Shown here: positions 784-9,857 of the stretch, one piece after another
Position numbering within the stretch: the first letter of the stretch is position 1
Layout: every line of letters starts with the position of its first letter
DNA from: Rhodocyclaceae bacterium
GTDB taxonomy: Bacteria; Pseudomonadota; Gammaproteobacteria; Burkholderiales; Rhodocyclaceae
Length of the DNA: 14,989 nucleotides
NCBI GenBank assembly: GCA_030689585.1
Contig: JAUYFZ010000076.1
Location: 1-14,989, forward strand
Direction of reading: 5' to 3'
Notes under the pieces: model-generated
Told to the model about the DNA's origin: nothing
What the model saw: only the letters and a program-made list of their open reading frames with translations
Database searches by the model: none
Program-made: the position numbers and the translations under genes

Positions 784-2270
<1,487 letters not shown>

Positions 2271-2275
2271 TTCTC

Positions 2276-4282
2276 ATGCAATTTTCAGAATCCTGGTTAC
2301 GAACCTTCGTTAATCCGTCCCTTTCGACGGAGGCACTCTGTCATCTACTGACCATGGCGGGGCTGGAAGTTGAAGACGAAAATGAAGGGCTGATTACCTT
2401 AAAACTGACGCCCAATCGAGCCGATTGCTTGTCTATCCTAGGTATTGCTCGTGAAGTCGCAGCATTGACGGGCAGTTTTTTGGTGTCACCGTCCGTGGAT
2501 GCGATACCTGCGGTCATCGACGATCATCGTGCTGTCACGCTGGATGTGCCGCAATCCTGCCCGCGTTACTGTGGCCGCATCGTGCGCGGCATTTCGCCCA
2601 CAGCGAAAACGCCAGACTGGATGCAACAACGCCTTGAACAGTGCGGCTCGCGCGCTATATCGCCCGTGGTGGATATCACCAATTACGTCATGCTGGAACT
2701 GGGGCAACCGCTTCATGCCTTCGATAACGCCAAACTCTCCGGCACGTTGCATGTGCGTGCTGCGAAACCGGAAGAAACCTTGCGCTTGCTCAATGGCGAA
2801 GTCGTTGAACTTTCCTCCCATCATCTACTGATTGCCGATGAAGCGCAGGCCTTGGCACTGGCCGGCATCATGGGAGGAATTTCTTCTGCCGTCGATGAAA
2901 ACACAACGGACCTTTTCCTTGAAAGTGCTTTCTTCGCGCCCAAGGCCATTGCAGGTAAAGCGCGTGCCTTAGGGTTTTCGACGGATGCTTCTTATCGGTT
3001 CGAACGCGGTGTGGATTTTGAATTGCCTCGTTGGGCACTGGAACGGGCGACAAGATTGATCGTCGATATTTGCGGGGGCCATGCAGGTCCGATCATCGAA
3101 ACCGTTTCAACGGCGAATCTGCCGATCCGTCAGCCGGTGCGGTTGCGCACGGGTAGAGTGGCGGACGTGTTGGGCGTGGATATTCCTCTGAACCGGATAG
3201 AAGCCTTGTTGCAAACGCTGGGAGGAAATCTCAAACAGCAGGACGATGGTTTTGTCATCACCCCGCCTGCCTGCCGTTTTGATATCGAGATTGAAGAAGA
3301 CCTGATTGAAGAAATTGCACGCTTGTATGGTTACAACAATATTCCAGCCCGTCCGCCACGAGCGAATCTTTCCATGCTGCCGTTGCCAGAGAATGTTCGT
3401 ACCCCGTTGCACATCAAGCAGTTTTTAGCAGGACGCGGCTATCAGGAAGTCGTGACCTACAGCTTTGTCGAAGCGGCATGGGAAACTGATTTTGCTGGAA
3501 ATACCGATCCACTGCGGCTAGCCAACCCCATTGCCAGTCAGATGAGTGTGATGCGCTCGACTCTTCTGGGGGGGCTGGTCAATGTGTTGGTGACGAATCG
3601 AAATCGACAGACCCCCCAGGTGCGCATCTTTGAAATGGGCCGATCATTTCTGACAATCGAGGCGCAGCCGCAGCGGTTAGCCGGATTGTGGGCGGGTTCT
3701 GCTTTGCCAGAACAATGGGGAATCAACCCCACCCGCGATGTTGATTTTTTTGACATCAAAGGTGATCTGGAAGCCTTGTTTTCACCGCATTCGTTGCACT
3801 TTGAAAAAATGATCCATCCGGCTCTTCATCCGGGGCGAGCGGCCAGAATCCTGTTTGACGGGCGCGATATCGGCTTTGTGGGCGCGTTGCATCCTCAACT
3901 GGTGCAAAAGTATGAACTGGGCATGGCTCCCGTGGTGTTTGAAGTAGATCGGGATGTTCTGTTGTCGATTTCAGTGCCTGCTTATCGTGAAGTATCGCGG
4001 CAACCTGCCGTGATTCGCGATTTGGCCCTAGTGGTATCGCAGAACCAGAACGTCGAACCGCTGCAAGCGGCATTGCGTGCGGCGGCTCCCCCCGTGGTCG
4101 TAGACATATCCTTGTTCGATGTTTATCAGGGTAAAGGATTGGCAGATGGACAAAAAAGCCTTGCATTTCGGGTAGTTATGCGAGATACTGAGCGCACCTT
4201 GACGGATGTTGAGGTGGAAAAAACGGTCGCATTGTTAGTCGATGCTGCCGTTCATTATTGCGGCGCAGTTTTGCGTGGTTAG
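2276..4282 (+). CDS. pheT: Phenylalanine--tRNA ligase beta subunit lacking the N-terminal tRNA-binding domain
   Basis: This is the structural and editing subunit of PheRS; it hydrolyses mischarged Tyr-tRNA-Phe. The 668-residue product compares with about 795 in E. coli. The first 35 residues match domain B1 (FSESWLRTFVNP, LTMAGLEVE). The chain then goes straight to GLITLKLTPNRADCLSILG, which in E. coli follows only after the roughly 110-residue B2 OB-fold. The reading frame is continuous through the junction. The rest is complete: editing domain B3/B4 with LELGQPLHAFD (His147), GIMGG and LFLESAFFAP; domain B5 with FDIEIEEDLIEEIARLYGYNNIP; the catalytic-like B6/B7 part; and the C-terminal ferredoxin-fold anticodon-binding domain (SLFDVYQGKGLADGQKS). 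There is no clear ribosome binding site, so translation probably couples to pheS. Confidence 0.95.
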   Translation: MQFSESWLRTFVNPSLSTEALCHLLTMAGLEVEDENEGLITLKLTPNRADCLSILGIAREVAALTGSFLVSPSVDAIPAVIDDHRAVTLDVPQSCPRYCGRIVRGISPTAKTPDWMQQRLEQCGSRAISPVVDITNYVMLELGQPLHAFDNAKLSGTLHVRAAKPEETLRLLNGEVVELSSHHLLIADEAQALALAGIMGGISSAVDENTTDLFLESAFFAPKAIAGKARALGFSTDASYRFERGVDFELPRWALERATRLIVDICGGHAGPIIETVSTANLPIRQPVRLRTGRVADVLGVDIPLNRIEALLQTLGGNLKQQDDGFVITPPACRFDIEIEEDLIEEIARLYGYNNIPARPPRANLSMLPLPENVRTPLHIKQFLAGRGYQEVVTYSFVEAAWETDFAGNTDPLRLANPIASQMSVMRSTLLGGLVNVLVTNRNRQTPQVRIFEMGRSFLTIEAQPQRLAGLWAGSALPEQWGINPTRDVDFFDIKGDLEALFSPHSLHFEKMIHPALHPGRAARILFDGRDIGFVGALHPQLVQKYELGMAPVVFEVDRDVLLSISVPAYREVSRQPAVIRDLALVVSQNQNVEPLQAALRAAAPPVVVDISLFDVYQGKGLADGQKSLAFRVVMRDTERTLTDVEVEKTVALLVDAAVHYCGAVLRG

Positions 4283-7395: not shown

Positions 7396-7422
7396 AGGCC
7401 TATCGCTGATTTTTTGCTGACC

Positions 7423-8913
7423 ATGCCACGACTACCTGCTGAGTTGGGGGCCAAGATCAATGGCATTCTGCTGATGTTTTTTCTGGCCGCACTTTCATTG
7501 ATTTTAGCGACGCTCTATGTGGGTCGTCTGCTGGAAGGCGGTGCGGCAGCGATTAACGAAGCCGGTGCTGAACGGATGCGCACCTATCGCATTGCGTATA
7601 TTCTGGACCAAAGCATTCACGATTTGGAACGCAGAGATGAGTTGGTACTCGAAGCGCACAACGTTTTGCTCTCCTTTGAATCGGCTTTGTCCTTGTTGGA
7701 ACAAGGGGATCCTGAACGTCCGCTTTTTTTGCCTCGTGAGGAACGAATTCATGCTGAGATGCGGGAGCTGCGCGAGCAGTGGGAATCTCGGTTGCGGCCG
7801 CTCATATTGAATGTCATGGAAACGCGCAGTTTGAATGAAAGACGGCAACTCATTCATCAACTGGATGAAGCGGTGCGCAAATTTGTCCCCATGATTAACG
7901 AGATTGTCCTGATGATAGAAAAGAGCAACGCACGCAATACCGACTTGATGTGGATTTTCCAGAATGCACTGGTGGGATTTGCTTTGGCAGGAACCTTATT
8001 TTTGGTCTATGTATTCAAATTTCTGGTGATTCGACCGGTTGAAAATCTGAAACGGGGCATGGACAGCATGGCCGCCGCCGATTTTGAAGTGCGGCTGTCT
8101 GTTGAATCGTCCGATGAATTCGGTGATCTTGCGAATGGATTCAATCGAATGGCGGATCGATTGAAAGGTTTCTACGACACGTTGGAACAACGCGTGGTGG
8201 ATAAGACACGGGATGTCGAAGAGAAAAACAGGGAATTGGCCGTGCAGGAAAGGGACATTGCCGTATGCACCGAGCGAAACTTACTGGCCCAGGAACTGCA
8301 TGACAGTATCGCGCAGTCATTGGCTTTCCTCAACATTCAGGCGCAGATGCTGCAAAGCTCTTTGCGTGCGGGTGAGATTGAAGCGGCTCATGAAGAGCTT
8401 GCACGCATACGGGAAGGTATTCAGGAAAGTTACGACAATGTGCGCGAATTATTGGTGCACTTCCGAATCAAAGCCGATCATGCAGATTTCGCCGAGGCGG
8501 TTCGGAGTACGCTGGAAAAATTTGAAGGGCAAACCGGGATACATACCACCCTTGAAAAACAAGGAGATGCCATGTTGGCGGGAGTGACTGCCGCCAACAC
8601 CCTGCAAATATTGCACATCTTGCAGGAAGCACTCTCTAACGTGCGCAAACACGCGGGGGCTTCCGCCGTTACGGTGAGTTTGCGAGGTGAGTGTGATGGA
8701 CTGATCGTTACCCTGTGTGATGATGGTCGCGGCTTCGATCCTTTGCGTGTCGTTGAGGAAGGGGGAACCCATGTGGGGATTAGTATCATGCGCGAACGAG
8801 CACATCGGATTGGCGCACGCTTCGAGTTGAATTCCGGCATAGGCACCTGTATCACGCTTACCCTCCCCTCCCTTTCGAACGCTACCGTATGCACACATCT
8901 TTTAACTTGTTGA
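7423..8913 (+). CDS. NarX-like sensor histidine kinase (HisKA_3 type)
   Basis: This is a membrane sensor kinase of 496 residues from ATG 7423; a TTG at 7414 is a less likely start. TM1 is at about 14-35. It is followed by AINEAGAERMRTYRIAYI (43-60), which matches the nitrate-binding P-box of NarX/NarQ. The helical periplasmic sensor runs to TM2 (about 178-201), then a HAMP domain (about 205-255) and a coiled coil. The dimerisation helix carries the phospho-acceptor His293 in ELHDSIAQSL. The ATPase domain shows the N-box EALSNVRKHA (Glu403), DDGRGFD (Asp433) and GISIMRERA. It lacks the central cysteine/GAF-like module of E. coli NarX (598 residues). No response regulator lies beside it. The final residues after ITLTLPS are encoded by an inverted-repeat element, so the natural C-terminus has been replaced. 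Confidence 0.9.
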   Translation: MPRLPAELGAKINGILLMFFLAALSLILATLYVGRLLEGGAAAINEAGAERMRTYRIAYILDQSIHDLERRDELVLEAHNVLLSFESALSLLEQGDPERPLFLPREERIHAEMRELREQWESRLRPLILNVMETRSLNERRQLIHQLDEAVRKFVPMINEIVLMIEKSNARNTDLMWIFQNALVGFALAGTLFLVYVFKFLVIRPVENLKRGMDSMAAADFEVRLSVESSDEFGDLANGFNRMADRLKGFYDTLEQRVVDKTRDVEEKNRELAVQERDIAVCTERNLLAQELHDSIAQSLAFLNIQAQMLQSSLRAGEIEAAHEELARIREGIQESYDNVRELLVHFRIKADHADFAEAVRSTLEKFEGQTGIHTTLEKQGDAMLAGVTAANTLQILHILQEALSNVRKHAGASAVTVSLRGECDGLIVTLCDDGRGFDPLRVVEEGGTHVGISIMRERAHRIGARFELNSGIGTCITLTLPSLSNATVCTHLLTC

Positions 8914-9221: not shown

Positions 9222-9857
9222 ATGAATCAATCGGAGGAGGAAAGCGAGGAGGCTATTGACCGAATCGCCGCATTTCTGCCCGAACAAATGCGCAGGCAAG
9301 CGCGACTTGTTCGGGCAAATGCTGAAGAGGTGCTGGATGCATCGGAAGATGTCTATCGTCTGATCAAAGGCTGCATGACCGTATGGCGTGATGCGCTGGG
9401 CGATGAGTGGATGCTTCAGTTCATGATTGAGGGCGACTGGCTGGTCGAAATGGCTCCTACCGGTCATGCCGTGCATGGCGACTGGATGGCGCGCTGTGAA
9501 CGAGACAGTCTGTTGCTGGCAATTCCGATCCCGGTATTCAATCAATGCCTGACGCACGATGCCGGTTTCGCGCTGACATGGTGCGCGAAACTTTCCGGTC
9601 AGATGTCCCGGTTGCATCGGCAAACCGAACGGCTCCGCATGCCGCAGGTCAGTGACCGGATTACCCATTATCTGGCGACAGAAAGTGTCAATGGGTGCGG
9701 CGAAATCACTTTGCCTTTTCCGAAATATCTTTGGGCGGCTCAGTTGGGGATCGCGCCTGAAACGCTTTCACGATCTCTGTTGCAACTGGAAACTGACGGT
9801 CGCATTGAACGTCGGTCGAACCGTTGTTTGTCTTTGCGCAGAGGTTGTGTTTCGTAG
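9222..9857 (+). CDS. Crp/Fnr-family transcriptional regulator
   Basis: This is a 211-residue cytoplasmic DNA-binding protein. Residues about 25-120 resemble the cyclic-nucleotide-type sensor barrel (IKGCMTVWRD, GDEWMLQFMIEGDWLVEM) but lack the conserved cAMP-contact motif. The C-terminal winged helix contains LPFPKYLWAAQLGIAPETLSRSLLQLE (about 165-190), the Crp-type recognition helix with ETLSR, followed by DGRIER. Four cysteines are spread through the sensor half, but there is no FNR N-terminal iron-sulfur cluster spacing, so it is not FNR proper. The signal is unknown. A rhodanese gene starts 39 bases after the stop, and a regulator beside a rhodanese suggests response to sulfur or redox species. 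That link is inference. Confidence 0.88.
   Translation: MNQSEEESEEAIDRIAAFLPEQMRRQARLVRANAEEVLDASEDVYRLIKGCMTVWRDALGDEWMLQFMIEGDWLVEMAPTGHAVHGDWMARCERDSLLLAIPIPVFNQCLTHDAGFALTWCAKLSGQMSRLHRQTERLRMPQVSDRITHYLATESVNGCGEITLPFPKYLWAAQLGIAPETLSRSLLQLETDGRIERRSNRCLSLRRGCVS

Follow-up and report, generated by a model that had tools for sequence, protein, structure and literature searches.

A bacterial phenylalanyl-tRNA synthetase beta subunit without its B2 domain, and likely repeated loss of that domain in one bacterial order

Cells cannot do without phenylalanyl-tRNA synthetase (PheRS), the beta subunit of which carries an unusually large set of RNA-binding modules; what each of them does is only partly settled. 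Bacterial PheRS-beta has a domain B2 described as 'EMAP II-like' (PMC3275996). B2 sits as an insertion in a loop of the B1 domain. The DNA treated here, hereafter the window, is a stretch of 14,989 nucleotides in which the pheT gene appears to have no B2. Is this a real deletion in a working enzyme, a domain that has moved elsewhere, a gene in decay, or an error of assembly?

The window pheT is an open reading frame with an ATG start and free of stops. Its features, and the partner gene pheS, are as follows.

1170..2270, + strand: pheS, alpha subunit partner, ORF of 366 aa (TIGR00468, 332.2 bits; comparison with G001 and G332)
2276..4282, + strand: pheT, phenylalanine--tRNA ligase beta subunit, B2-less, 668 aa (ORF; TIGR00472, 602.9 bits)
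2276..2374, + strand: B1 domain, first half, residues 1-33 (MQFSESW...GLEVE; alignment with E. coli residues 1-33 and relatives)
2375..2389, + strand: junction of the deletion at residues 34-38 (DENEG), where B2 with its edges, about 117 residues, is absent (alignments; flanking AlphaFold strands)
2390..2545, + strand: B1 domain, second half, residues 39-90 (LITLKLTPNRADC...), end approximate (alignment)
2558..3076, + strand: B3/4 editing domain, residues 95-267 (PF03483)
2714-2716 and 2921-2923, + strand: conserved editing residues H147 and E216, within B3/4
3137..3334, + strand: B5 domain, residues 288-353 (PF03484)
3341..3949, + strand: catalytic-like CLM domain, residues 356-558 (PF17759)
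3995..4276, + strand: B8 / FDX-ACB anticodon-binding domain, residues 574-667 (PF03147, E 2.7e-24)

The score of the window PheT passes the cut-off of TIGR00472, the model for bacterial PheRS beta (402.65 bits), and fails that of TIGR00471, for archaeal and eukaryotic PheRS beta (131.7 against 282.65 bits); with B8 also present, an archaeal-type PheT was rejected. Pfam places B3/4, B5, CLM and FDX-ACB in the order found in bacterial PheRS beta, and the expectation of intact downstream domains in a continuous frame thus held. PF01588 (tRNA_bind), the B2 match usually inserted in B1 of bacterial PheRS beta, was absent from the window PheT at E<=1 in a domain search of the kind that had been proposed. 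B2 is usual, yet unneeded for the curated TIGR00472 model, since the window protein passes without it and members without B2 from CPR bacteria are in print (PMC5370408). The window PheT, which lacks B2 and keeps all its other domains, is a B2-less bacterial PheRS beta, the CPR form of which is known here by description.

A phmmer comparison with E. coli PheT (3pco_B) gives a split match, query residues 1-33 to chain residues 1-33 and query 37-662 to chain 155-789, which leaves E. coli residues 34-154 unmatched. The usual place of B2, inserted in B1, agrees in the alignment with the window junction. Ahead of PNRADC the window protein has 45 residues; the four B2-bearing relatives compared have 162 each, a difference of 117. 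The original prediction, that the whole N-terminal tRNA-binding domain had gone by an in-frame deletion, is borne out by this gap and by the absence of PF01588, and its figure of roughly 110 residues, or 330 bp, was about right.

An assembly collapse or sequencing error, by which some 350 bp were dropped from a full-length pheT, might be suspected in a genome as fragmented as the source of the window, which is contig 18 of G000 (1.71 Mb in 314 contigs, 79% complete). The gap is, however, common to five separate sequences of 668-680 aa, which are the only ones without PF01588 (the window PheT, P0002, P0003, P0004 and P0006) in a listing of the best 120 relatives from the database, and residues at the junction vary between species. 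The names of the listed relatives are mostly Rhodocyclaceae. Genome G001, one contig of 2,704,353 bases, encodes a PheT with the same translation as P0006 (680 aa), which matches the window PheT unbroken over residues 1-668 at 66% identity. P0006 is a protein named for Ca. Nitricoxidivorans perseverans, which we infer G001 to be. MAG1 of this organism is reported as a closed genome in a single circular contig, from data that include PacBio reads, by authors who count it 92.28% complete and place it in Sterolibacteriaceae (PMC10390337). For the clade as a whole, neither chance nor a faulty assembly can explain the deletion: five sequences share it, and one of them comes from a circular contig in a PacBio-supported assembly. 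The relatives in which the missing 330 bp might have turned up (G001 and P0002-P0004) have the same gap, so collapse was rejected for the clade, and a full-length pheT behind the window has only a very small chance. One further point in favor of collapse concerns a different genome, G332, whose short PheT is known from one sequence and has a 95%-identical relative, P0122, with B2. The suggestion that the deletion may be a lineage trait was upheld, B2 being absent in both genomes examined for the window's genus, G000 and G001.

The clade's junctions are nested, with 49 residues ahead of PNRADC in P0003, P0004 and P0006, four more than in the window protein and P0002. One ancestral deletion followed by small trimming would fit these junctions best. 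A tree of the downstream PheT core (65 of 214 proteins) at its best sets P0001-3 (window, P0002, P0003) apart from P0004/6 at a fork of 84/79, and a tree with all five held together is not rejected (p-AU 0.468). Since the two groups are not sisters on the best tree, the deletion might represent two events.

The frequency of the short PheT was surveyed in other genomes. The window PheT was searched against 61 genomes, 60 of which match. In 52 the match falls into two separate pieces, one covering about residues 1-35 and the other 37-667, with roughly 350 bases between them; in G033 it falls into three, and in seven it is single. Besides G000 and G001 these seven are G016, G017, G024, G053 and G057, which match from residue 34-38 onward but in open frames of 774-896 aa.

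Within the family, TIGR00472 matched 376 of 395 genomes (19 without), and those with split or weak matches, plus some others, were rechecked with the window PheT (33 genomes, 31 of the family). Three of the 376 are B2-less, G000, G001 and G332, their short PheTs matching TIGR00472 in two pieces at 1.9e-169 to 4.5e-174; the genomes not rechecked gave one match each at E 1.3e-221 or better and were taken as B2-bearing, and eight with later PheT parts only were left unjudged (G080, G115, G125, G317, G360, G369, G373, G406). In a phylum sample 380 of 397 genomes matched, and among the matches listed only G000 matched a 76-residue junction profile unbroken.

For the order, which we take to be the Burkholderiales, a single PF01588 match was the flag, raised by 37 of 399 genomes, G000 included. 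A recheck of the other 36 with the window PheT found five that are B2-less (G816, G946, G987, G1006 and G853), 27 in which the length or gap of PheT is the usual one, one with a fragment only (G1043), and three with no PheT match (G912, G1026, G1030). B2 is thus absent in at least 6 of 399 genomes, a lower bound because the one-by-one check covered the 37 with a single PF01588 match; the other 362 have two or more. The 27 must, on these counts, have either a MetRS without a scoring tRBD or one copy too diverged to score, since their PheT is full length and yet they have one PF01588 match. The second case is seen in G1054, G1071 and G1104, where the one match falls in an ORF of MetRS size (690-702 aa) although PheT occupies an ORF of 809-812 aa. 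In any of the 27, genus g96 among them, where MetRS does lack its C-terminal tRBD, this would be a parallel loss of the same fold.

Are these B2-less proteins one lineage or several? Their junctions differ. Over 13 B2-less rows the right end falls just before the B1 strand leading into TPNRxDC, and the left end is variable. The G332 protein (P0121, 700 aa; L113 1490-3592) keeps the first B2 strand and is sister to B2-bearing P0122 and P0123; this is apparently a separate, recent deletion in another genus of the family, and rests on one assembly. P0188 (699 aa) and P0201 (686 aa), which stand for three and two member sequences respectively, are also B2-less, with the break elsewhere. On the tree P0121, P0188 and P0201 each stand apart among B2-bearing rows, and at least five changes are needed, or four if the window clade is one.

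A second listing had 6 of 120 relatives without PF01588 (P0121, P0188, P0201, P0004, P0195, P0196). P0195 and P0196 were not counted as losses, being N-terminally cut and beginning inside the missing region, nor was P0273, 598 aa long and named a fragment. P0196, a 686-aa PheT on a 756-kb contig, has its first residues (MSNSFGML...) within B2 and so lacks the N-terminal half of B1; either the gene was called too short or the protein is truly unusual.

Outside the family, B2-less PheTs span three more families of the order, represented by G816, by G946/G987/G1006 and by G853. G946, G987 and G1006 belong to one genus, B2-less in all three genomes seen (L119 1924-4029, L122 and L123); the G946 protein has 701 aa and its genome is a single contig of 3.28 Mb. 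They group with P0215-P0219, and the next relatives among the matches listed (65% identity) have B2. In G975, genus mate of G853, the ORF that holds PheT has 824 aa, and G848, genus mate of G816, has two PF01588 matches. These three losses are off the tree, their independence being argued from taxonomy, identity and junctions. Together with those on the tree they would make at least seven losses in the order. We consider it likely that B2 was lost independently this many times in one order, each time with an open frame, a nearly identical right breakpoint and the main editing residues conserved; the open frames are partly imposed by the search design, as a broken essential gene would hardly turn up among open frames. 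If so, bacteria other than CPR also manage without B2 in nature, and pairs of sisters of which only one has kept the domain (e.g. G332 and P0122) are natural loss experiments that directly test its share in proofreading.

A domain missing from PheT might still serve it from elsewhere, as a stand-alone or fused tRBD acting on PheRS in trans, and each genome does have a tRBD. That tRBD, the only PF01588 match in G000 and likewise in G001, is the C-terminal domain of MetRS (PF09334 plus PF01588). The check for a free-standing tRBD, part of the original prediction, found none by PF01588 search in G000 (79% complete) or in G001, and for the latter, closed and without a second PF01588, the candidate was rejected. 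B2-bearing G020 and G029 have two PF01588 matches each, the first in a PheT-sized ORF and the second in one of 706 or 719 aa; the other B2-less genomes examined have one, in an ORF of 670-933 aa. PheT itself matches once in G000 and once in G001, and the gene adjoins pheS. The part missing from G000 may hold a second pheT or tRBD, which the closed genome G001 does not share. We give relocation of B2 almost no credence, and prefer its outright loss.

If B2 is lost, is editing being lost with it? The editing residues of E. coli, which we take to be H265, G318, E334, T354 and A356, map to H147, G200, E216, T236 and A238 of the window protein. H265, G318, E334 and A356 are identical in five of five window-clade members; T354 is T or S there, and in the other 29 rows of alignment A3 it is S in 27 and T in 2. 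Over the 13 B2-less rows, which span all the groups, four positions (G261, H265, G318 and E334) are invariant. T354 is again T or S, and at A356 eleven rows have A and two (G816, G853) have S. For T. thermophilus, His261, Glu334 and their neighbours are given as editing residues (PMC3275996). A lost editing site was thus rejected at the positions checked.

Early decay of PheT or relaxed translation quality control, with B2 loss as a first step to losing PheRS editing, would draw on the contribution of B2 to editing stated in the title of Roy & Ibba 2006, on the long branch to P0001-P0003 (0.6 changes per column in a midpoint-rooted drawing), on five residues missing from a hairpin of the window PheS, and on the serine at A356 in G816 and G853. 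Against this stand the near constancy of the six positions above, the remaining domains, which pass their Pfam cut-offs in all four of the B2-less PheTs that were scanned, and frames that are still open in the window and G001 at 66% identity. Decay is unlikely. A scan of A3 for compensation took columns with one residue in >=85% of the 28 B2-bearing rows and >=4 of 5 clade members differing. It returned 13 scattered columns, of which only F242 and C662 have a single residue in all five clade members, each state also occurring in 2 of 28 B2-bearing rows; nothing convincing as a shared compensatory substitution was found in this comparison.

In the window the + strand runs from the end of infC through rplT, pheS, pheT and an ihfA-like gene (infC, rplT and ihfA are presumed from their sequences), and the order from rplT onward is the same in G001 locus L115. 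Judged against G001, the true start of pheS is probably near 1236, some 22-24 codons inside the listed ORF. Compared with G001 and G332, the window PheS lacks the five residues at a conserved hairpin and one more nearby. Farther on, the ORF at 7414-8913, presumably a NarX-like sensor kinase, is followed by a presumed Crp/Fnr-like regulator at 9222-9857, with no long response-regulator ORF between them.

An AlphaFold2 model of the window PheT (34 sequences) has a mean pLDDT of 75.9 and pTM of 0.53, with residues 359-428 under 50. The junction falls between strands 31-36 and 39-43 (block pLDDT 72 and 68), and this arrangement suggests, with moderate confidence, that B1 closes there as a beta hairpin. 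The top Foldseek ranks are bacterial PheRS-beta chains (4p71_A, E 1.4e-67, TM 0.55, rmsd 17.4), though the rmsd and TM values make domain placement in the model unreliable.

With these alternatives weighed, we hold with high confidence that the window encodes the beta subunit of a working bacterial-type (alpha-beta)2 PheRS from which B2 was lost by in-frame deletion in an ancestor of the Ca. Nitricoxidivorans group. In the mechanism we propose, as B2 is an accessory EMAP/OB-fold domain inserted in a B1 loop, its removal would let B1 close as a beta hairpin. Charging of tRNA-Phe would then depend on the contacts that are left, those of the alpha coiled coil, the catalytic core and B8, and post-transfer editing in B3/4 would be retained, maybe with weaker tRNA capture. 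That the enzyme is active is a prediction, as is any kinetic effect, perhaps weaker editing or tRNA capture.

Repeated natural loss with the editing residues kept suggests an accessory under weak or conditional selection, and close sister pairs with and without B2 make its role in tRNA capture and Tyr-tRNA-Phe clearance testable. Short PheTs in metagenome bins call for caution before they are named pseudogenes or misassemblies. We found no report of B2 loss in Proteobacteria, or of repeated loss in this order, in the literature searched, which left most subscription papers outside.

Among known systems, the window PheT is like bacterial PheRS beta (E. coli 3pco, T. thermophilus 1pys) in its other domains, their order, its pheS neighbour and its editing residues, and differs in lacking E. 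coli residues 34-154, the EMAP-like B2. Archaeal and eukaryotic cytosolic PheRS beta (3l4g, 2cxi) have no EMAP-like B2 at the corresponding place, and Foldseek with the window model also reaches 3l4g_B and 2cxi_A. Archaeal and eukaryotic PheRS are described as missing B8, with the editing histidine replaced (PMC3275996). The proposed closeness to their layout therefore stands for the missing B2 and fails for B8/FDX-ACB and the bacterial editing histidine, both of which the window protein keeps; the likeness is convergent. Roy and Ibba are said to have deleted B2 from E. coli PheRS; that is the same domain but in a laboratory construct, whereas the window's deletion is natural and fixed. The title of their 2006 paper calls B2 'dispensable' and credits it with contributing to editing. 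The PheT of Mycoplasma pneumoniae is reported to tolerate a split after B1-B2-B1 (PMC12494982). In CPR bacteria a B2-less PheRS-beta is reported (example OGE14653.1, PMC5370408) which, compared by its published description, is like the window's a bacterial beta without B2, in other phyla; the losses in the present order look recent and independent, nested among B2-bearing relatives. The reading of the window gene as a B2-less PheRS beta is confirmed. The trait is shared, however, with CPR proteins and with further lineages of the order that have lost B2 independently. Given the CPR proteins, the Roy & Ibba title and the split Mycoplasma protein, the kind of change is already known, and what the window PheT adds is a natural experiment more than a new system.
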